From NCBI GenBank assembly GCA_029209985.1, contig JARGNZ010000005.1:28672-92671 (forward strand): 64,000 nt of DNA, read 5' to 3'. The translations under genes were made by a program, and so were the position numbers. The notes beneath the pieces were generated by a model, which worked only from the letters and a program-made list of their open reading frames with translations, was not told where the DNA came from and ran no database searches. The DNA is from Parvibaculaceae bacterium (lineage in GTDB: Bacteria > Pseudomonadota > Alphaproteobacteria > Parvibaculales > Parvibaculaceae). Shown one piece after another: positions 821-19,484 of the stretch (position 1 is the stretch's first letter; every line of letters starts with the position of its first letter).

Positions 821-1639
821 ATGGAAAAAACAATTTTTACGTATGCGTCTCAGGATGATGGTGTGGTGCGCCAGATGCTTATTCGCAGTGTTGAGGTGTT
901 GACGGGGCGGCGTTATTTGGAACGGCTTTATACAGAGTATCGATCTCACCCTGCGCCGCGCCCTGAGTTTTTTGATGCGGCCGTGCGTACGTTAGGTTTG
1001 CAGCTTAGCCTTGATCCGGCGGCGTTGAAGGTCATTCCTCAGGAGGGGCCTGTGGTGTTGGTGGCTAACCATCCTTACGGTGTGTTGGACGGCATTGTGA
1101 TGTGTCACCTTATTTCCAAAATACGCCCTGACTTCCGTGTCTTAGCTAATTCTGTTTTGTGGAAAGCAGAAGAAATGCAGCGCTGCCTCTTGCCGATTGA
1201 TTTTTCTGCGAGCAAAGAGGCTTTGCGGACAAATGTACGTTCTCGCCAAGAAGCCCGGCGATTTTTGGCGCAGGGGGGTGCTGTTGTTGTGTTCCCAGCG
1301 GGGGCTGTTTCCACGACCCCCTCATTGTTTTCTGCTTGGGCACAAGACCAACGATGGGGCACGTTTACTGCTCAATTAGTGCACCGGGCGCAGGCACCAG
1401 TGGTGCCGTTTTATTTTGAGGGTCAGAATAGCGCGTTGTTTCAATGGGCAAGCCATTTACATGAGGCGCTGCGCTTGTCGTTGTTGTTTCGAGAGGTGAA
1501 AGAGCGGATGGGGACACGGCTTGGGGTGCAGGTGGGCCACTTGCTGCCTTATGAGGAACTCGCAACCTGGGGGGCACCGCAGGAGATGATGGACCGCCTG
1601 CGCGCGCATACCTATCACCTTGGGCACGCCCGCCCTTAG
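821..1639 (+). CDS. lysophospholipid acyltransferase family protein
   Basis: This 272-residue protein looks like a glycerolipid acyltransferase of the PlsC/LPLAT superfamily, which transfers acyl groups from acyl-CoA or acyl-ACP to a lysolipid or similar acceptor at the membrane. The key motif is NHPYGVLDG (about residues 88-96), the HPxGxxDG variant used by hemolysin-like acyltransferases instead of the strict HX4D. A second motif, FPAGAVS (about 159-165), takes the place of FPEGTR. There is no clear membrane segment or signal peptide. It faces znuA tail to tail with a 4-base overlap at the stop codons. The natural acceptor cannot be told from sequence. Confidence 0.8.
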   Translation: MEKTIFTYASQDDGVVRQMLIRSVEVLTGRRYLERLYTEYRSHPAPRPEFFDAAVRTLGLQLSLDPAALKVIPQEGPVVLVANHPYGVLDGIVMCHLISKIRPDFRVLANSVLWKAEEMQRCLLPIDFSASKEALRTNVRSRQEARRFLAQGGAVVVFPAGAVSTTPSLFSAWAQDQRWGTFTAQLVHRAQAPVVPFYFEGQNSALFQWASHLHEALRLSLLFREVKERMGTRLGVQVGHLLPYEELATWGAPQEMMDRLRAHTYHLGHARP

Positions 1640-2622
1640 GAGCGGGGGGACGTGGCCGCAAGCGGTGATAAGCAGTCTTGCATGGAGGCGCCCATCTTTT
1701 CCAACAAATCTGGGAAGAAGTTTTCAGCCCCTTCGAGGTTTGCGCCGAGGGGGTCTAATTGGTCAAATATGGCGGGTGTGCCGACAAAATATTTACGCGT
1801 GGTTTGCTGATCAAACTCAGGTTCTAAGAAGACGCAGAATTTTGGCAGGGCAAGGGCTTTTGCGCGCAAGGTGGCCAAGGCTTTTGGGCCGATGCTGAGG
1901 TCTGGGCGTAAGTTGACAATGTCTTGGGCGTGCAGTCCGTAGCGATGCTCAAAATATTGATAGGCGCTGTGGAATGTGAAGTAGGGGCGGTTGTGGAGGG
2001 GGGCCAATTGTTTGGATAGGCGCGTGTCTACTTTTACCAACTTCTCGATGAGGTTTTGAGCGTTCTGCGTATATAGGGCGGCTCTGGATGGATCGAGGGC
2101 TGAAAACGTCTCGGCCATTGTGCGGGTGATCGCGATGGCGTTATCTGCATCCAGCCAAATATGGGGATCGATGGCCTCTATGTGCTCGGCAATGTCGATT
2201 TGATCTGCTTGATGGTCGTGGTGGTCTTGGGCTGGTAGTACCGTGAGGCCGGGGGTGTCAAGTAAGCGGACATGAACGGCTTGTGAGGCGATGTTTTTAA
2301 GGGGGCGTTCTAAAAAGGCTTCGAGTTCTTCGCCAATCCAAAACACCACTTGGGCTTCACTGAGGTGGCGGGCATCAGACGGGCGCATGACGTAATCGTG
2401 GGGCGATTGGTTGGGGCGTACCAAAAGGCGGGGGGTGCCTGCGCCCTGCATCACAGATGCGGCCAAGCCATAGACCGGCGCAATAGATGCCATCACCTTT
2501 AGGTGCGGGGAGGAGGGCTGGGAGGTTGCGTGGGCTGTCTTTGTGAGGAGGACAAAAAGAGCGAGGGCAACGGTCAACGAGGCGAGATTGGCGAATACTT
2601 TTAGGGGGAACATGTGGGGCAT
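1636..2622 (-). CDS. znuA: zinc ABC transporter substrate-binding protein ZnuA
   Basis: This is the periplasmic zinc-binding protein of a ZnuABC-type importer (328 residues, cluster A-I solute-binding family). It has an N-terminal signal peptide (hydrophobic segment about residues 10-31 ending in AHA). A metal-binding His is visible in the SPHDY motif, followed by the short acidic/His loop DHHDHQ typical of ZnuA, then DPHIWLD, FHSAYQYFEHRYG and a late acidic motif EPEFDQQ. Two in-frame ATGs (2622 and 2613) are possible; 2622 has a GGA at a reasonable distance. The permease and ATPase genes are not adjacent, so this is an orphan znuA. A Zur-type operator lies 27 bases upstream, which strongly supports zinc-repressed expression. 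Confidence 0.93.
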   Translation of the reverse strand: MPHMFPLKVFANLASLTVALALFVLLTKTAHATSQPSSPHLKVMASIAPVYGLAASVMQGAGTPRLLVRPNQSPHDYVMRPSDARHLSEAQVVFWIGEELEAFLERPLKNIASQAVHVRLLDTPGLTVLPAQDHHDHQADQIDIAEHIEAIDPHIWLDADNAIAITRTMAETFSALDPSRAALYTQNAQNLIEKLVKVDTRLSKQLAPLHNRPYFTFHSAYQYFEHRYGLHAQDIVNLRPDLSIGPKALATLRAKALALPKFCVFLEPEFDQQTTRKYFVGTPAIFDQLDPLGANLEGAENFFPDLLEKMGASMQDCLSPLAATSPRS

Positions 2623-11134: not shown

Positions 11135-11716
11135 ATCTAAGTCTCCGATCTGAAAGTTATCCCCCAATGCCCCTCCCATTCACCACTTATGATCGGGGTC
11201 TCTTTAGGAGTTTTCCCTCGATTGGACGATGGTGCAAGCAGAACACGCATGGAGTGTTTAGAATTATTGACGAAACAGGCTTCATTTAGGTTTTGAAGCA
11301 TAAAGCATGGCGCAGGATTTTTGGAGCGAAATGGACGGGTGCAGGCATTTTGTGCAGATGGGGCAATGCATGACCTTTTTTAGGCATGGGGGCGGTACAT
11401 AAGCCTGTATGATTTTCGTAAGTATGGGCTTCATTTCCGAACGGATGGGCCAGTTTTTGAGGGCAGGCGCCTGAGTATTTTCTAGGCATTTTGGCTCTCG
11501 CCGCCCCCTTGCGCCCGTCCTTTGGGTGTCTTTTGTATTGTTGCACCGAAGTGACGCTCGTTTTCTTTCTGAGGGAGGGCGCTGCAGTGCTCGTGGCAAA
11601 TATTGACGACTTTGAGAAACCACTTTAGCATAAACTTCGTATTGCGCTACGTGTCCGACCGGTATTGCACTGCAGTTCTAAAATGTTCTGATGTAACTGG
11701 TTGGAAGTACTTATTC
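11135..11716. other. long intergenic region between divergent polyamine operon and sigma factor gene
   Basis: About 580 bases with no supportable gene. Two overlapping minus-strand frames (about 11282-11623) are open, but their composition looks random and they lack a ribosome binding site. The promoters of both divergent operons must be here. I found no good Fur, Zur or ECF promoter match. Confidence 0.5.
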
Positions 11717-12244
11717 ATGGGCACGCGTGCGACCGACGGTAAGAAAGACCTGTATTGGACTTATATCCATAAATGGCCTCTTCTTCGTGACTTCCTTAAA
11801 AGACGTGTAGGGTCTCATGACCTTGCGGAGGACGCTCTGCAAGAAGCATGGTTTCGTCTCGCGCTCATGGACCCGGCGGCGCAACCTATTCGCGACCCTC
11901 AAGCTTATATTTTGCGCGTGGCGGGTAATATTGCGATTGATATGATCCGCAAAGAAAGCCGCCATAAAGAAGCGTGCATCAGTGATGATGAGATGCTGGC
12001 GACTGTTGCTGATACGGCTCCGTCGCCTGAAAATTATGTGATTGACCGGGACCAATTACTTCAATTGGCTGTGGCTTTGGCTGAGCTTCCCAGACCTGCG
12101 CGGGCAGCTCTGCTGTTGCAGAGATGTGACGGCCTGTCACATCGCCGTATTTCAGAAAAGCTGGGTGTTTCCGAAAGCATGGTCGCTAAATATTTAGCCC
12201 AAGCTCTGCGCCATTGTCGTGACCATTTCCGGCGGATTGGATGA
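11717..12244 (+). CDS. FecI-type ECF sigma factor
   Basis: A 175-residue extracytoplasmic-function sigma factor. Region 2 is visible in DLAEDALQEAWFRL and IRDPQAYILRVAGNIAIDMIRKE, and region 4 in ALAELPRPARAALLL...GLSHRRISEKLGVSESMVAKYLAQALRHC, the pattern of FecI-like sigma factors. I start at the ATG at 11717, with GGAAG about 10 bases upstream. It is followed by a FecR-type anti-sigma gene and a TonB receptor with an STN domain, so it most likely drives transcription of the receptor when the receptor binds its ligand outside the cell. Confidence 0.9.
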   Translation: MGTRATDGKKDLYWTYIHKWPLLRDFLKRRVGSHDLAEDALQEAWFRLALMDPAAQPIRDPQAYILRVAGNIAIDMIRKESRHKEACISDDEMLATVADTAPSPENYVIDRDQLLQLAVALAELPRPARAALLLQRCDGLSHRRISEKLGVSESMVAKYLAQALRHCRDHFRRIG

Positions 12245-12324
12245 AACTGTGCGTGTTTTTATCGAGGGCATCGGGCCAAGTTTCGGCCCTTCTAATTCTC
12301 TGGGTATGAGGGGGATCGTTGGGT

Positions 12325-13269
12325 ATGAAGTCAAACGAAGATCAAATGAACGTTGATATTGAGTTGAGCAATGCGGCAATTGATTGGCTTGTGAAGCTCA
12401 ATTCCGGGGCGGCGTCGGCAGAGGATCTTGCTAATTTTGAGCAATGGCGGTTTCAAAGCTCTGAGCATGAAAAAGCAGCACTAGAGGCTGAAGCCATTTG
12501 GTATGGGGTTGGGCTTGCGGGTAAGAAACTGCGTGAGGATACCCGTAAAAAGATCACCCGTCGGGCTTTGCTCGGCGGCGGAATTGTTGCGCTGGGTGGT
12601 TTGGGTTTGACCCAATATAAAGACATCAATACGCAGCTTGCCGCAGACTATAAGACTGGTATTGGCGAGCAGCGCCAGCTTACCCTTGAGGATGGTTCTA
12701 CGGTTCTTTTGAATGCGGATAGCGCTATTTCTATCGATTATACGCCAACCCGTCGCGGCATTACTTTGTTGAAGGGGCAAGCGCATTTCACAGTCTCTCC
12801 TGCTGCACATAGGCCTTTCATTGTGGAGGCTGAGGGGGGGCAGGCGCGGGCAATTGGCACTGTTTTTGATGTGGCGATTGGTGCGGAGCAGGTTGCTGTT
12901 ACGGTCATTGAAGGGCGTGTGGGGGTGTCGACATCAACTGTAAACTCTCGCGGCGTTGAAATCGGATCGGATGAACAGGCGCATTACGCACACCGGATGC
13001 CTGCCTTAGAGGTGAAGGCGGTGGATGCTGCTCTTGTGACAGCATGGAGGCGGGGCAAGTTGATTTTTAATCAACGTCCTTTGAGTGACGTTGTCTTTGA
13101 AATTGAACGTTATTTACCGGGTAAAATTTTTATCGCTCGGGCACATATGCGGTTGCTGAAAGTGACGGGAGTGTTTGATCTCTCAGAGCCGGCTAGTGTT
13201 TTGCAAATCGTAGAGGAAACGCTGCCGGTCCGTGTGGCGGCAATGCCCTTTGTCACTGTTATCTACTGA
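12325..13269 (+). CDS. FecR-type anti-sigma/signal transducer
   Basis: A 314-residue inner-membrane protein that receives the signal from the outer-membrane receptor and controls the sigma factor. Residues 12-55 form the cytoplasmic sigma-binding DUF4880 region (AIDWLVKLNSGAAS...FEQWR). A single membrane segment (about 77-95, ALLGGGIVALGGLGL) is preceded by a twin-arginine pair in TRRALLGGG; some FecR/PupR proteins are known Tat substrates. The periplasmic FecR domain follows (LEDGSTVLLNADSAISIDY, AIGTVFDV), with a C-terminal STN-like part. The start is ATG 12325, which is favoured over TTG at 12319. It follows the sigma gene by 80 bases. Confidence 0.9.
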   Translation: MKSNEDQMNVDIELSNAAIDWLVKLNSGAASAEDLANFEQWRFQSSEHEKAALEAEAIWYGVGLAGKKLREDTRKKITRRALLGGGIVALGGLGLTQYKDINTQLAADYKTGIGEQRQLTLEDGSTVLLNADSAISIDYTPTRRGITLLKGQAHFTVSPAAHRPFIVEAEGGQARAIGTVFDVAIGAEQVAVTVIEGRVGVSTSTVNSRGVEIGSDEQAHYAHRMPALEVKAVDAALVTAWRRGKLIFNQRPLSDVVFEIERYLPGKIFIARAHMRLLKVTGVFDLSEPASVLQIVEETLPVRVAAMPFVTVIY

Positions 13270-13443
13270 TTTTGGACGCGCACTTATGTGATGTTTTGTT
13301 TCTTTTTTGTGGGATGGAAATTTATTTTTAATTTCTACTGCAAGATTGTGCGGTTCATTTCGTCCTTGTTAGTGAAGGCAGTAAATATTGTGAACCGACC
13401 TATGCCTGTCTTCTTAAAGTCAAACAGGGATAGGTAGTTAGTA

Positions 13444-16179
13444 ATGTGTAAGGGTGCAGACAGTGGGGCACTAACCCAAAAATTCAGATGGCGCAGATCT
13501 CCAAGCGGCATGACAATGGGTGTGTTGTTTTTAACGGTCGTTTTGGGGGTAAGCTTTTGCGGGCCTGCCGGTGCTCAGCCTGTTGTGGAGCCGCCAGAAG
13601 CTTCACAACAGGATGGAACGCAGCTGGGTGCAAATGCGAAGAGAGTTTTATTTGATATCCCCCCTCAGCCGCTGGGAACGTCTTTGACGTATTTTGCGGA
13701 CCGAGCGGGTGTTGAGTTGTTGTTTCCCTCGGAGCTTGTGGTGGGAAAAACGTCTGGAGGGCTGTCGGGGTCTTTCACGCGTGAGCAAGCGCTGAACAGA
13801 TTGCTAGGGGGAACTGGGCTTGTCTATCGCTTTACGTCATCTCATACGGTGACCATTTCAAAGCCTGGCCATGAAAGCTCGGTTGAGGGCGCTGAGTCGC
13901 TTGATATGATTGTTGTTGTTGCGCCGGATACTTCATCTGGGCCGGGCTATATGGGCACGCCGGATTGGGTTTATGAGGAGCCTGCTGCGGTGAGCGTGAT
14001 TTCTAGCGAGGCCCTCGAAAGAATGCCTGTGCGGAATACGGCAGATCTTTTTGAAGGTGTTTCTGGGGTGCACACAGCGAATAATCCGCAAAACCCCGCT
14101 GTGAATGTCAGTATGCGGGGGCTTATTGATCATAACCGGGTTGCCTCGATGATTGATGGGGCGCGGCAGAATTTTCAGCGGGAGGCTCATGGCACCACTG
14201 ATTATGTTTTTGTTGACCCGGCCATGCTGCGGACGGTTGAAATTGAAAAGTCTAACACCTCAGGTGTTGGGAGTGCGGGATCCCTTGGTGGATCGGTAAA
14301 TTTTCGTACTCTTGGTGCTGACGATATTATTGCGCCCGGCGAAACGTTTGGGAGTGAACTGAATCTTACCTCTGGCGATAATGCGTATTATTTCACCGGT
14401 TCTGGATCAGTTGCAGCAGAGCTGAGTGACCGTGTTTCTGTTTTGGCGGTGTTGAGCAGTCGAAAGCGGGGAGATTACAAAATTGGTGAAAATGGGTCGA
14501 TTGAACGCGATAATATCACTGTTAATGTCGCAGATGGTGTCGATCATACGTCCCTTAAATCATATTCAACGCTTTTGAAGGTGGAAGCGAAGGCAGCGGA
14601 TCACATTGATTTGGAAGCCAGTTGGTTGCATTTCTCCAGTGATTTTTGGTATGGGAATGGATATTACATTAACAATGATAAATTCGACAATGATACCGTA
14701 ACGGGGAAAATTCATTGGCACCCTAATGATCCGATGATTAACTTGAAGGGGACGGTTTGGTATAATAGCACCTACGGGGACCAGTTCCGCCCGCAGGGTC
14801 AAGGCGGAAGAAGTTACGGTGATTATGCGGTGCAATACGGCATGGATTCTACCGGTCTGTCGCTCGATAATACAAGCGAATTTGAATTGCCATGGGCAAA
14901 CCTTAGTCTGAATTACGGCTTTGAGGGCTTTGTGGATGAAACGGATGTCACTTCGCAGTCGCTCTTGAAAGACGCAAGCGGGAGTGGCATTCCAGCAGAT
15001 CAGCAAGAGCTGCAGAACCGATGGTTCTCAGGCTACAACCCAGTGGGGCGACGGGATGTTTTGAGTGGATTTGCCTCGGCAAATTTTGCGCATGAAGACT
15101 GGCTGACTGTTTCTGCGGGCCTGCGGTATGATTATTATGAGCTTGAAGGTGTCGCTAATATTGTGACGGGCACTGAAAGTAGGTACACCGTTGCGGAAGT
15201 GTGTAATCCTGGAACACCCCTGCCGCCAGAGATTTGGGCTATTATCTTTCCGGGGGTTCCTTATCCCGCCGACGACGTATGTGGTCCTGACCCGTATCCG
15301 GTAACAGGCCCAACCTATATTCAATATGAAAATGTTGAGGTTAAATCCAGTGGGGGGCGGCTGTTGCCGACGGCGATGCTTTCGATTAAGCCTTTTGATT
15401 GGCTGCAACCCTTCGTTAAATATTCGGAAGGGTATCGGCCGCCAACGCTTTCTGAGGCTGTTATGGGTGGCACGCATGTGGGCGGGGGGGCTAATTTTTA
15501 TCCAAACCCGAATCTGAAGCCTGAGCATACGAGGACATGGGAAATCGGTGCTAATATCGTTACTGACGACCTTTGGGCGTCTGGGGACCATCTTCGTTTT
15601 AAAGGTGTTTTCTTCGATCGCACGTTCAAAAACCGTATTATTCTGGCGACCATTCCTGTGACGCATTCCTACACGGGCCCAGTTGGGGGGTATCAAAGCC
15701 CTGCAAGTGGGATTGGTGACTTTGTTACAGGTGCCATTGTAACAGAGGGCGATGGATATACGAATGTTGAGGGCGTTTCTAAGACATGGGGTGTGGAGTT
15801 TGAAGCGGGCTATGATATGGGCGTTGCCTATATTGGTGGGGCCTACACGCATATGGAGCCCGATACTTTATCTGTGCTGGTGACGCCGCCCAAAACAAAA
15901 GTCTCAGTAGATGGAGGCGTGCGTTTGTTTGATAAAAAGTTAGTTATTGGCGGGCGTTTGGGATACTCCAGCGAAGATATTCGGCTTTATAAGGCACGCT
16001 ATAGACAGCCTGCTTATACAAAGTATGATCTATACGGATCATATAGCTTTAGTGAAAAGGCATCCTTGAGCTTTGCGGTCGATAATCTGACGGACATTGC
16101 TTATGTGCCTCCGCTCGGTGGGGAGCTTTACCCAGCGCCGGGGCGGACGGTAACGGCAACCCTTAGGCTTAAGTTTTGA
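13444..16179 (+). CDS. TonB-dependent receptor with STN signalling domain, probably heme/hemoprotein type
   Basis: A 911-residue outer-membrane receptor. After a signal peptide (about residues 22-42, ending in GPAGAQ) comes an STN domain at about 60-140 (FDIPPQPLGTSLTYFADRAG, then SGSFTREQALNRLLGGTGL), the part that talks to FecR. A TonB-box-like DMIVVVAP follows at about 155, then the plug (residues about 175-300, with NVSMRGL and GSLGGSVNF) and a 22-strand barrel ending in aromatic-containing LRLKF. The barrel contains YRPPTLSEAV and NPNLKPEHTRTWEIG, resembling the FRAP/NPNL motifs of heme and hemoglobin receptors such as HasR/HutA. The ligand is an inference; another iron carrier is possible. 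It ends at a good terminator. Confidence 0.88.
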   Translation: MCKGADSGALTQKFRWRRSPSGMTMGVLFLTVVLGVSFCGPAGAQPVVEPPEASQQDGTQLGANAKRVLFDIPPQPLGTSLTYFADRAGVELLFPSELVVGKTSGGLSGSFTREQALNRLLGGTGLVYRFTSSHTVTISKPGHESSVEGAESLDMIVVVAPDTSSGPGYMGTPDWVYEEPAAVSVISSEALERMPVRNTADLFEGVSGVHTANNPQNPAVNVSMRGLIDHNRVASMIDGARQNFQREAHGTTDYVFVDPAMLRTVEIEKSNTSGVGSAGSLGGSVNFRTLGADDIIAPGETFGSELNLTSGDNAYYFTGSGSVAAELSDRVSVLAVLSSRKRGDYKIGENGSIERDNITVNVADGVDHTSLKSYSTLLKVEAKAADHIDLEASWLHFSSDFWYGNGYYINNDKFDNDTVTGKIHWHPNDPMINLKGTVWYNSTYGDQFRPQGQGGRSYGDYAVQYGMDSTGLSLDNTSEFELPWANLSLNYGFEGFVDETDVTSQSLLKDASGSGIPADQQELQNRWFSGYNPVGRRDVLSGFASANFAHEDWLTVSAGLRYDYYELEGVANIVTGTESRYTVAEVCNPGTPLPPEIWAIIFPGVPYPADDVCGPDPYPVTGPTYIQYENVEVKSSGGRLLPTAMLSIKPFDWLQPFVKYSEGYRPPTLSEAVMGGTHVGGGANFYPNPNLKPEHTRTWEIGANIVTDDLWASGDHLRFKGVFFDRTFKNRIILATIPVTHSYTGPVGGYQSPASGIGDFVTGAIVTEGDGYTNVEGVSKTWGVEFEAGYDMGVAYIGGAYTHMEPDTLSVLVTPPKTKVSVDGGVRLFDKKLVIGGRLGYSSEDIRLYKARYRQPAYTKYDLYGSYSFSEKASLSFAVDNLTDIAYVPPLGGELYPAPGRTVTATLRLKF

Positions 16180-16209
16180 GGCGTAGGTGAAGGTTAAGCT
16201 ATGCCAGGT

Positions 16210-16258
16210 TTGGCGTTACTGGGTTGGGTAAAACCACCAGTGACGCCAATTTTGTTTT
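16210..16258 (+). terminator. terminator of the TonB receptor gene
   Basis: TTGGCGTTACTGG at 16210-16222 pairs with CCAGTGACGCCAA at 16237-16249 with one T-G pair, followed by TTTTGTTTT. Confidence 0.88.
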
Positions 16259-16341
16259 AAGCGACCTTAAAGGCTTGGAGGGGGCGGGGTAGTCGGATAC
16301 AACCCGTTATCAATTCAAGTCTTTCGTGTTTGGAGCATCGG

Positions 16342-17205
16342 GTGAATTATCGTCATATATATCACGCAGGTAATTTTGCAGATGTGCTGAAGCATTCTGT
16401 TTTGGCGCTGTGTATTGACTATCTCCAGCGTAAAGAAAAACCCTTTTGTGTGCTCGATACGCACGCGGGCCTTGGGGCTTATGATTTGAGCCAAGACGAG
16501 GCCCAGCGGACGGGTGAGTTTCATGATGGGATTGCGCGCATTCTGGCGGACCCACATGCCCCTGAAGTTTTGGCGCCTTATTTGGATATTGTGCGGCGCA
16601 TGAACCAAGGCATGATTGGGGAGGCGGGGGCTGTGCGTCACTATCCGGGCTCTCCTTGGGTGGCGCGGCAAATGTTGCGGGACGATGATCGGTTGATTGG
16701 GTGTGAACTGCATCCAGATGATTATGATGTTTTGGCTGATAACTTTGCGCGCGATAAGCAAAGCGCGATGTTTCATCAGGATGCCTATCAGGGATTGCGG
16801 GCGCATTTGCCCCCCCGTGAACGGCGTGGGCTGGTGCTGATCGACCCTCCTTTTGAGGTGCGCGATGAATTTGGACAAATTTTGCGGGGGCTGGTGCAGG
16901 CGTTTAAGCGGTTTGCGCAGGGCACTTATTTGATTTGGTATCCGATTAAGGACCGCCAAACAGTGGAAGCCTTTTGGGCTGCGTTAGATGAGACCGTGGC
17001 GTGTGAGGCGCTGCAGGTGGAGCTTTATGTGAAACCACTGGGTGAGGAAGGGTTGCCGGGCACTGGCTTGGCCATTCTGAACCCGCCTTATGTGCTGACA
17101 GATCAATTGGGGCCTTTGATGCCTTATTTGGCTGAAAAGCTGGCGATTGTGGGCTCAGGAGACTTTCGGTTGAAAAAACACGACCTTCATGGCGCCCGCG
17201 ATTGA
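16342..17205 (+). CDS. rlmJ: 23S rRNA (adenine2030-N6)-methyltransferase RlmJ
   Basis: A 287-residue RNA methyltransferase that modifies A2030 of 23S rRNA with SAM. The N-terminus reads NYRHIYHAGNFADVLKH, a family hallmark; the SAM motif region is VLDTHAGLGAYDL, and the catalytic motif is DPPF (in VLIDPPFEVRDEF). The GTG at 16342 is chosen because GGAG lies 6 bases before it and it gives the usual N-terminus of the family (E. coli RlmJ is 280 residues). It stands alone between terminators. Confidence 0.94.
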   Translation: MNYRHIYHAGNFADVLKHSVLALCIDYLQRKEKPFCVLDTHAGLGAYDLSQDEAQRTGEFHDGIARILADPHAPEVLAPYLDIVRRMNQGMIGEAGAVRHYPGSPWVARQMLRDDDRLIGCELHPDDYDVLADNFARDKQSAMFHQDAYQGLRAHLPPRERRGLVLIDPPFEVRDEFGQILRGLVQAFKRFAQGTYLIWYPIKDRQTVEAFWAALDETVACEALQVELYVKPLGEEGLPGTGLAILNPPYVLTDQLGPLMPYLAEKLAIVGSGDFRLKKHDLHGARD

Positions 17206-17225
17206 TTCAGTGATTGATTTTTAGT

Positions 17226-17267
17226 TGACAATGATTCTCAATAATGCTGAATTAATAATCATTCTTA
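17226..17267. promoter_or_regulatory. two tandem Fur-type boxes upstream of the DUF2061 gene
   Basis: TGACAATgATTCTCA (17226-17240) and TAATAATcATTCTTA (17253-17267) each match 12 of 14 positions of the 7-1-7 Fur consensus TGATAAT-N-ATTATCA. Their centres are 27 bases apart and they end 18 bases before the ATG. This suggests iron-dependent (or manganese-dependent, Mur-type) repression of the following gene. Confidence 0.72.
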
Positions 17268-17285
17268 TTTGCATTTGAGGCTCTC

Positions 17286-17513
17286 ATGCGCGATTTACTC
17301 AAAACACTCTCATTTGCGGTACTGCACTTTTGCGTTGGCTTTGCCGTTACTTATTTCCTGACAGGCTCGGTGAGTGTGGCGCTGGGCGTTGCGTTGATCG
17401 AACCGTCCATCAATACGGTGGTTTTCTACTTCCATGAGTTGGCATGGAAACAGGATAAGAAATTCAATTTCAAAGAGATGCTCTCTTTAACCGGCTTTGC
17501 GCACGCGCATTAG
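17286..17513 (+). CDS. DUF2061 small membrane protein, probably iron-regulated
   Basis: A 75-residue inner-membrane protein of the DUF2061 family. Two membrane segments are visible (about residues 8-28 and 30-50), the second ending in the family motif EPSINTVVFYFHELAWK. The C-terminus is polar and ends in two histidines within AHAH. The function of the family is not established. Two Fur-type boxes directly upstream imply that it is made under iron limitation, which hints at a role in metal or oxidative stress, but that is inference. Confidence 0.85.
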   Translation: MRDLLKTLSFAVLHFCVGFAVTYFLTGSVSVALGVALIEPSINTVVFYFHELAWKQDKKFNFKEMLSLTGFAHAH

Positions 17514-17545
17514 GGGCTATTTCCGCTGAGGTATTTCTAGAGAGA

Positions 17546-18184
17546 TTATTTCCAGGCCCAAACGGGTTGCTCAAAGTGGGCGACCCGGGTTTGGTTTCCC
17601 CTGACAGCGGTTTCTAAAAACTGGTAGAGCAGGGCCGCTGTCGGTGCATGAATTTGATGCTCTAAGAGGTGGATGCGCAACACGGGGCGCGGGCTTTCTT
17701 CAATTTCCATCACTGTCACAAGGTCTTCTCGGTGGGCTTGGCTGAGGGGAATATAGTGTAGAGACGCGACCTCTTGCGGGCTGGCAACGGGCGTGAGTGT
17801 GCGCTTGGGCCAAAAGACAAAAGGCGTGATGCGATAGCCCGACCGGGTTGCATAGCTATCTAGCTGTCCCAGACATTCGTCGGCGCGTAACGCCAACCCC
17901 ACTTCCTCATGACTTTCCCGCATGGCCGTTTGTTGCAGGGTTTCGCCTGCATCTTGACGCCCTCCTGGCAAAGCCCATTGGCCCTTATGGGTGTTCAGGG
18001 TGGTTGCCCGTCTGGTGAGCAAAAGGCTTGCTGTGTGCGGTGTCTCTGGGTCTGGCAAAACAATCAGCGCAACAGCGGCTTGGCGGGTGATCTTTTGTTC
18101 CTGAGAGGGGGCTGTGTCTATTATATTAAATTCAGAAATGTGCCGTGCCATTAGATCTCGGTTTTCTTCGCTAAATTCTGTCAT
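17546..18184 (-). CDS. Nudix hydrolase, CoA pyrophosphatase-like
   Basis: A 212-residue Nudix hydrolase. The Nudix box is complete: GGRQDAGETLQQTAMRESHEEVGL fits GX5EX7REUXEEXGU. The preceding LLLTRRATTLNTHKGQWALPGG and overall length match the NudL/YeaB group that hydrolyses coenzyme A and its derivatives to 4'-phosphopantetheine and adenosine 3',5'-bisphosphate. It is a single cytosolic gene, convergent with the DUF2061 gene. Substrate assignment is by family resemblance. Confidence 0.87.
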   Translation of the reverse strand: MTEFSEENRDLMARHISEFNIIDTAPSQEQKITRQAAVALIVLPDPETPHTASLLLTRRATTLNTHKGQWALPGGRQDAGETLQQTAMRESHEEVGLALRADECLGQLDSYATRSGYRITPFVFWPKRTLTPVASPQEVASLHYIPLSQAHREDLVTVMEIEESPRPVLRIHLLEHQIHAPTAALLYQFLETAVRGNQTRVAHFEQPVWAWK

Positions 18185-18365
18185 TTTGCGATCTTTTCTC
18201 TTTGTCTGGGGAGGGGGCTCACGGCTCTTTTGTTTAATATTATAGACCCTTGGTGGGCGGGATGCAAATTCCCCTCTTGTGCGATTTGGTGGGGTGCCTA
18301 GGCTTTAGGGGGTCAGAAACAGTCGCGACCACACGCGGGTATGTGACTCCTACTAGGAGGTGAGA

Positions 18366-19484
18366 ATGCTGATTGGCGTCCCAAAGGAAATTAAGGTGCA
18401 TGAATATCGCGTGGGGATGACCCCGGCGAGTGTGCGCGAAGCTGTGCATCATGGACACCAAGTTGTGGTGCAAAAAGACGCGGGTTCTGCCATTGGTCTG
18501 CATGATGCGCAATATGTGCAAGCCGGTGCGACCATCGTGGAAAGTGCGGACGAGATATTTTCTGCTGCTGATATGATTGTGAAAGTGAAGGAGCCGCAGT
18601 TGGGCGAATGTGCGATGTTGCGGGAGGGGCAAATTCTTTTCACCTATTTGCATTTGGCTCCTGATCCCCAACAGGCTGAAGCTTTGCTCGCCTCTGGATG
18701 TGTTGCGATTGCTTATGAAACGGTGACAGATGTACGCGGGGGACTGCCTTTGCTTGCGCCCATGAGTGAAGTGGCGGGCCGGATGTCGATTCAGGCCGGG
18801 GCACATTGCTTGGAAATGGAGCAGGGGGGACGCGGACAATTGTTGGGCGGTGTGCCCGGTGTGCCTGCGGCTAAAGTTGTGGTGTTGGGGGGCGGGGTGG
18901 CGGGCACCAATGCCGCACGCATGGCGATGGGGCTTGAGGCGCATGTCACGGTTATTGATATGAATTTGCACCGGCTCTATGAACTTGATATGCAATTTGG
19001 CCCGAAGTTGAATACGATTTTTGCCACTGTCGACTCTATTGAAGAGCATGTGCTTGAGGCCGATTTGGTGATCGGGGCGGTGTTGGTGCCGGGTGCGGCG
19101 GCTCCCAAACTTGTGACCAAAGAGATGGTCGCGTCCATGAAACGTGGTTCTGTGTTGGTGGATATTTCCATTGATCAAGGGGGGTGCTTTGAAACGTCGA
19201 AAGCGACAACCCATGAAGACCCGACATATGCAGTGGATGAGGTTGTGCATTACTGCGTGGCTAATATGCCGGGGGCTGTTGCGCGGACCTCAACATTTGC
19301 TCTCAATAATGCGACCTTACCTTTTGCCTTAGCGATTGCGGACAAAGGATATAAGGCGGCACTTTTGGAAAATCCCTATTTGTTGGCAGGGCTGAATGTG
19401 CATAAGGGGCAATTGACCTATCAGGCGGTGGCCGATGCTTTGGGTATTGATGCCTATGATGCGTTTGATCTTTTATCCGTGTAG
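18366..19484 (+). CDS. ald: alanine dehydrogenase
   Basis: NAD-dependent L-alanine dehydrogenase (372 residues), catalysing the reversible oxidative deamination of L-alanine to pyruvate and ammonia. It starts with the signature MLIGVPKEIK; the catalytic residues K75 (in KVKEP) and H96 (in YLHLA) are at the standard positions. The NAD-binding motif VVVLGGGVAGTNAARMA lies at about 170. A strong TAGGAGG precedes ATG 18366. It stands alone. It may help in nitrogen and carbon balance when amino acids serve as carbon source. Confidence 0.96.
   Translation: MLIGVPKEIKVHEYRVGMTPASVREAVHHGHQVVVQKDAGSAIGLHDAQYVQAGATIVESADEIFSAADMIVKVKEPQLGECAMLREGQILFTYLHLAPDPQQAEALLASGCVAIAYETVTDVRGGLPLLAPMSEVAGRMSIQAGAHCLEMEQGGRGQLLGGVPGVPAAKVVVLGGGVAGTNAARMAMGLEAHVTVIDMNLHRLYELDMQFGPKLNTIFATVDSIEEHVLEADLVIGAVLVPGAAAPKLVTKEMVASMKRGSVLVDISIDQGGCFETSKATTHEDPTYAVDEVVHYCVANMPGAVARTSTFALNNATLPFALAIADKGYKAALLENPYLLAGLNVHKGQLTYQAVADALGIDAYDAFDLLSV

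Follow-up and report, generated by a model that had tools for sequence, protein, structure and literature searches.

Candidate Fur-type boxes in front of a small DUF2061 membrane protein gene of a Parvibaculaceae bacterium

Judged by the candidate sites in front of it, the DUF2061 gene at positions 17286..17513 (forward strand) of the window, the whole stretch of 64,000 nucleotides analysed here, is very probably under Fur control. The gene product is a protein of 75 amino acids with the C-terminal tail GFAHAH and belongs to the subfamily with an EP motif ('EPxxN', type A; proteins lacking the EP motif are referred to as type B). Its assignment to DUF2061 in the initial annotation was confirmed by a full-length match to Pfam PF09834 (E 5.9e-21, 75.1 bits with a gathering cut-off of 23.1, profile positions 1-52 of 52). 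Taken as a whole, the data lead us to favour, with moderate confidence, an Fe-Fur-repressed two-helix inner-membrane protein, which would take part in metal handling during iron shortage and under peroxide stress.

The two boxes are located in an intergenic stretch of 80 bp (17206-17285), which separates the DUF2061 start from the end of an upstream gene for an RlmJ family rRNA methyltransferase (16330..17205, forward strand, start codon unsettled). Box 1 (TGACAATGATTCTCA, 17226..17240, forward strand) agrees with the Fur-type 7-1-7 consensus TGATAATNATTATCA in 12 of 14 positions and box 2 (TAATAATCATTCTTA, 17253..17267, forward strand) in 11 of 14, so that the 12/14 initially given for each box holds for the first and is one too high for the second. 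Box 1 differs by a single base from TGACAATCATTCTCA, a site found before a bfd-like gene elsewhere in the genome, and also by a single base from the corresponding site of the nearest relative. It overlaps TTGACA (17225..17230, forward strand), by its sequence a probable -35 element with an indistinct -10 partner, at a place where the consensus scan reported no promoter; a position over the -35 element is usual for a repressor. Four sites of at least 11/14 are found in the whole window, and the remaining two (3287 and 24942) lie inside open reading frames. When the 80-bp stretch was shuffled with its dinucleotides preserved, a site of at least 12/14 arose in 152 of 20,000 shuffles, and such a site together with a second, separate one of at least 11/14 in 3 of 20,000.

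Downstream of the DUF2061 gene, a terminator-like stem-loop (17563..17587, forward strand, from a consensus scan only) and a convergent NUDIX hydrolase gene (17546..18184, reverse strand) are located, a layout which fits control of the DUF2061 gene alone by the two boxes. Parvibaculum and genus g3 likewise have DUF2061 next to this NUDIX gene and the AlaDh/PNT gene that follows it. An Rfam search of 16100-18400 gave no match. The gene would form a unit of its own under repression by Fe-loaded Fur, which would bind box 1 across the -35 element, aided by box 2; the latter might be a second Fur site, or might be shared with or have evolved from an Irr site. From the position of the motif and from the relatives described below, Fur would be expected to shut the promoter when iron is plentiful and to release it upon iron shortage. 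The window also harbors a surface-signalling iron/haem uptake set (11603-16179), which lies about 1 kb away on the upstream side of the DUF2061 gene. It consists of a FecI-like sigma factor (11603-12244), FecR (12319-13269) and an STN-domain TonB-dependent receptor for haem/haemoglobin (13444-16179; TIGR01785, 454 bits), all encoded on the forward strand. An open reading frame at 1636-2622 (reverse strand) resembles, by eye, the ZnuA-type metal-binding protein of an ABC importer.

Similar boxes are found upstream of many DUF2061 orthologues. A scan of genome contigs yielded 178 stretches encoding a relative, the best 80 of which were kept; they stem from Rhodobiaceae, Parvibaculum, Rhodospirillales and others, Shewanella, Gilvimarinus and Neisseria, covering Alpha-, Beta- and Gammaproteobacteria. 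A Fur box of at least 11/14 within 150 bp upstream was present in 49 of these 80, many of which are closely related to each other and do not represent 80 independent events, compared to 2 of 889 control upstreams, taken from other open reading frames at the same loci. Shuffles of the 80 orthologue upstreams contained such a box in 35 of 1580 cases. A lack of conservation, named initially as one part of the outcome that would speak against the proposal, was not observed. In an even sample of the phylum (199 genomes, 51 of them with DUF2061, including the window's own), 54 proteins were read, i.e. 62 matched rows minus the window's own and minus seven second domains of tandem proteins. Of the 42 type A genes in this set, 20 were preceded by a box of at least 11/14 and 22 were not; for type B genes, such a box was seen in 2 of 12 cases, and for controls in 1 of 193. 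In the window's own order, none of five type B genes had one. Fur-type boxes are thus carried mainly by the EPxxN subfamily, an observation new to this study. This split, with boxes frequent in EPxxN members and mostly absent from type B, shows which DUF2061 proteins should be studied with respect to iron.

Two further motifs were considered for the orthologues. The exact variant seen in Parvibaculum, TAAGAATAAGTCGCA, was rejected as a genome-wide motif, since it occurs at only one place within two mismatches in that genome. It fits an alpha-type consensus, TRAKAATNATTMKCA, which was found at 10 places in the same Parvibaculum genome versus none for the control; of the nine places other than DUF2061, four adjoin PNPOx/DUF2470, hemP or TonB-plug genes. 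This looser TRAKAATNATTMKCA was present in 71 of the 80 DUF2061 upstreams versus 0 of 889 controls, a result which is partly circular, as the consensus was written after the upstreams had been viewed. The RirA-type motif TGA-N9-TCA was uninformative, because Fur boxes contain it.

Published data on two relatives point in the same direction. The DUF2061 gene CC_0155 (CCNA_00154) of Caulobacter crescentus is given as 13.07-fold up with iron limitation and 5.99-fold up in a fur mutant (PMC3751524), and SO_4740, a DUF2061 gene of Shewanella oneidensis, is listed in a Fur regulon table with a motif weight of 10.8 (PMC12442407). Conservation of the boxes across genera and the expression of these two relatives together lend strong support to the iron link. 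The initial proposal of a candidate new player in iron homeostasis therefore stands as far as the Fur-type link to iron is concerned, but only in part as to its novelty, as Fur-dependent expression of a DUF2061 gene has been known from Caulobacter since 2013 (PMC3751524). No report of a function for iron-linked DUF2061 members was found in openly licensed PMC papers.

The genome itself encodes three proteins of the Fur family. The Fur homologue (L031) scores 136.8 bits with PF01475 and has Fur proteins as its best PDB relatives (E 7.6e-54), with scores under the cut-offs of NCBIfam's Fur equivalogs. The second protein exceeds the NCBIfam cut-off for IrrA, and the third, a Zur-like homologue, has Zur among its best PDB matches. 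With up to three mismatches, the Fur consensus was found at 113 sites in the whole genome versus 28 for the reversed control pattern. Of 18 sites with up to two mismatches, 15 were fetched with their surroundings. Among these are sites before TonB-dependent receptors (L036 and the overlapping L045/L046) and before the bfd-like ferredoxin (L038, slightly below the Pfam cut-off); others fall within coding regions or precede genes without visible iron link. The single perfect 14/14 box (L034) precedes a protein without Pfam match and the site L035 lies beside a TetR gene, which shows that a box can also stand at genes that are not recognisably linked to iron.

The regulation might involve a second regulator. 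Box 1 could be a Fur site and box 2 an Irr-type site, or a descendant of one, so that the gene would respond to both Fur and IrrA, the latter reporting iron/haem or peroxide status; we regard this as a serious possibility, though not as the preferred one. The Irr-type consensus is TTTAGAANNNTTCTAAA. It was matched in at least 12 of 14 positions in 8 of the 80 DUF2061 upstreams (best 80 of 178) versus 0 of 889 controls, and at three loci (L075, L083 and L084) the Irr-type site follows about 16 bp after the Fur box. The nearest relative (L049, protein 83% identical, among the best 80 of 178) reads ATTAGATTTATTCTAAC at the position of the second box, which is 11/14 Irr-like. Furthermore, IrrA is encoded in the genome, and the two best Irr-type sites of the genome precede dps and a peroxiredoxin gene. 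On the other hand, box 2 of the window is closer to Fur (11/14) than to the Irr-type motif (10/14, at 17252-17268), and in the window's own genome the motif with up to two mismatches was no commoner than its control (11 versus 13 sites). From their sequences, some Alphaproteobacteria add an Irr-type box to the Fur box upstream of DUF2061, which is likewise added by this study; for the window gene, control by Fur, with box 2 as a possible second Fur site, is retained. The sites before dps and the peroxiredoxin gene (L200 and L201, contig C3) are a perfect and a near-perfect copy of TTTAGAATNATTCTAAA located 5.4 kb apart, and possibly constitute an Irr/PerR-like peroxide regulon of this genome.

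The DUF2061 product is predicted to form a two-helix hairpin. In the structure model (mean pLDDT 82.8, pTM 0.56), helices span residues 2-26 and 29-58, followed by a short third helix (62-68) of low confidence. A PDB fold search returned nine weak matches (best E 4.2), none of them usable, and a PDB sequence search with a 48-row profile returned none. Both ends carry positive charges, which suggests a cytosolic location for each. Tandem two-domain forms, found in seven genomes of the phylum sample, suggest a functional unit of two or more copies; in two tandem proteins (L169 and L174, from G059 and G158) the linker between the domains is rich in histidine. The product may thus be pictured as a 75-residue helical hairpin in the inner membrane, with both ends probably on the cytosolic side and assembled into a dimer or a larger complex.

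Five residues (K6, H14, E39, P40 and W54) show no variation across the 119 unique domain sequences of type A, and T7 and H50 (98%), T26 and G27 (97%), N43 (93%) and E51 (92%) are nearly invariant. On an ideal 100-degree helix, K6, F10 and H14 share one face of their helix, and E39, N43, H50 and W54 one face of theirs. Of 115 unique type A proteins, 39 carry a [CH]x(0-2)[CH] pair in the C-terminal tail, compared to 10.8 on average and never more than 20 over 500 draws of control tails; the pair is absent from the other 76 type A tails, including most of those from Shewanella, and, by eye, from all of the 17 type B tails listed. This enrichment and the invariance of the polar helix residues are further additions of this study, as are the neighbours of some box-less type A genes given below. 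Our guess is that K6, H14, E39, N43, H50 and E51 would bind a divalent metal, most likely Fe(II), and that the His/Cys tails of many relatives would help in binding it. The protein might then import metal or pass it on under iron scarcity or upon peroxide damage to iron enzymes, the direction of transfer being part of this guess. A metal-handling role is a tentative assignment, and its connection with iron shortage and peroxide stress is drawn from the residues, the tails and the neighbouring genes.

Clustering of neighbour proteins revealed no operon partner conserved across unrelated taxa, and the recurrent neighbour clusters were rejected as partners, being local synteny, large families or spurious open reading frames. 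In three genomes, a type A gene without an 11/14 Fur box is located between katG and a divergent OxyR-like gene (246 bits, under the cut-off of 329). The DUF2061 genes at these loci (L132, L133 and L134, all from one genus) lie 65 to 93 bp before katG, and two of them have a FeoB_C match within 2 kb. At four loci in three genomes, a type A gene without an 11/14 box follows a gene for a DUF892 ferritin-like protein (one confirmed by Pfam, the others by eye). In three other genomes of one genus, dps is divergent from a type A gene that has a 12/14 box (one confirmed, two by eye). The katG, OxyR, dps and ferritin-like neighbours in some lineages suggest a role where iron shortage meets peroxide stress. 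No association of type A genes with FeoB_C was observed, which is present in 19 of 38 genomes with type A and in 82 of 160 without. A generalization to type A as a whole is speculative and in our estimation rather unlikely to hold in full: type A would be a widespread, so far unrecognised minimal membrane protein for metal handling, an oligomer of two-helix hairpins that would hold a His/Glu/Asn site within the membrane and, in many lineages, bind metal through its cytosolic tail as well. Its gene would be under Fur in many lineages and adjacent to OxyR/katG, dps or ferritin-like genes elsewhere, and the protein would provide the cytosol with Fe(II) or Mn(II) during iron shortage or under peroxide attack.

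Alternatively, the protein might be a small regulator or accessory subunit, which attaches to a larger membrane protein without carrying metal of its own; this deserves about as much credit as metal handling. It would be in line with the small size, the two long helices, the lack of any enzyme-like or transporter-like fold match and the standalone gene with varying neighbours. However, the charged and polar residues that stay invariant along one face of the helices, like the His/Cys tails, fit a ligand site, and a partner gene conserved nearby is missing. Should the metal-handling role prove true, a widely Fur-controlled gene would gain a testable job, also in the well-worked Caulobacter and Shewanella.

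Two other explanations are improbable. In the first, the Fur homologue would be a Mur-like regulator that senses manganese, which would place the gene in manganese homeostasis. Among solved structures, the Fur homologue is closest to 5fd5, a Fur/Mur protein of Rhizobium, and Alphaproteobacteria using Mur have IrrA as a second iron sensor, as is present here. However, similar boxes precede the bfd-like gene and TonB-dependent receptors, which are usual iron targets, and the Caulobacter relative CC_0155 is described as responding to iron. The search for manganese transporters, which covered Nramp, gave no match in the genome, and type A genes do not follow Nramp in the phylum sample (13 of 38 genomes with type A, 52 of 160 without), leaving the suggested role in manganese homeostasis without support. 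According to the other explanation, the family has its task in sulfate assimilation or elsewhere, and its iron control is incidental. It draws on the CysN-like GTPases of two genomes, which carry a fused type B DUF2061 domain (L181 and L184, the second DUF2061 match being below the Pfam cut-off), but these fusions are type B without EPxxN, and a box of at least 11/14 was found in only 2 of 17 type B genes. For type B itself, the fusions are a hint of a function in sulfate assimilation. That the boxes are chance sequence is hardly credible: the gap is 71% A+T and a single site of at least 11/14 arose in 1109 of 20,000 shuffles, but boxes of this quality are conserved before the orthologues at the rates given above (49/80 versus 2/889).

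Several known DUF2061 proteins can be compared with the Fur-controlled candidate of the window. PA3237 of Pseudomonas aeruginosa is reported to matter for calcium-dependent polymyxin B resistance and to be up under UV plus H2O2 (PMC12632274). It shares the Pfam family with the window protein, and the text on PA3237 in that paper makes no link to Fur. The CysN-DUF2061 fusions resemble the window protein in their C-terminal Pfam DUF2061 domain and differ from it in the absence of EPxxN and of a histidine at position 14; neither fusion gene has a box. The Shewanella orthologues differ in that their upstreams mostly contain one box cluster and their tails mostly lack the His pairs, whereas SO_4740, as listed, is a DUF2061 gene with a high-weight Fur motif, and boxes of up to 14/14 were found here before Shewanella orthologues. 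CC_0155 of Caulobacter, known from its expression, resembles the window gene at the level of the DUF2061 family, and in the published data it is derepressed by both iron limitation and loss of Fur, as would be expected of the window gene.
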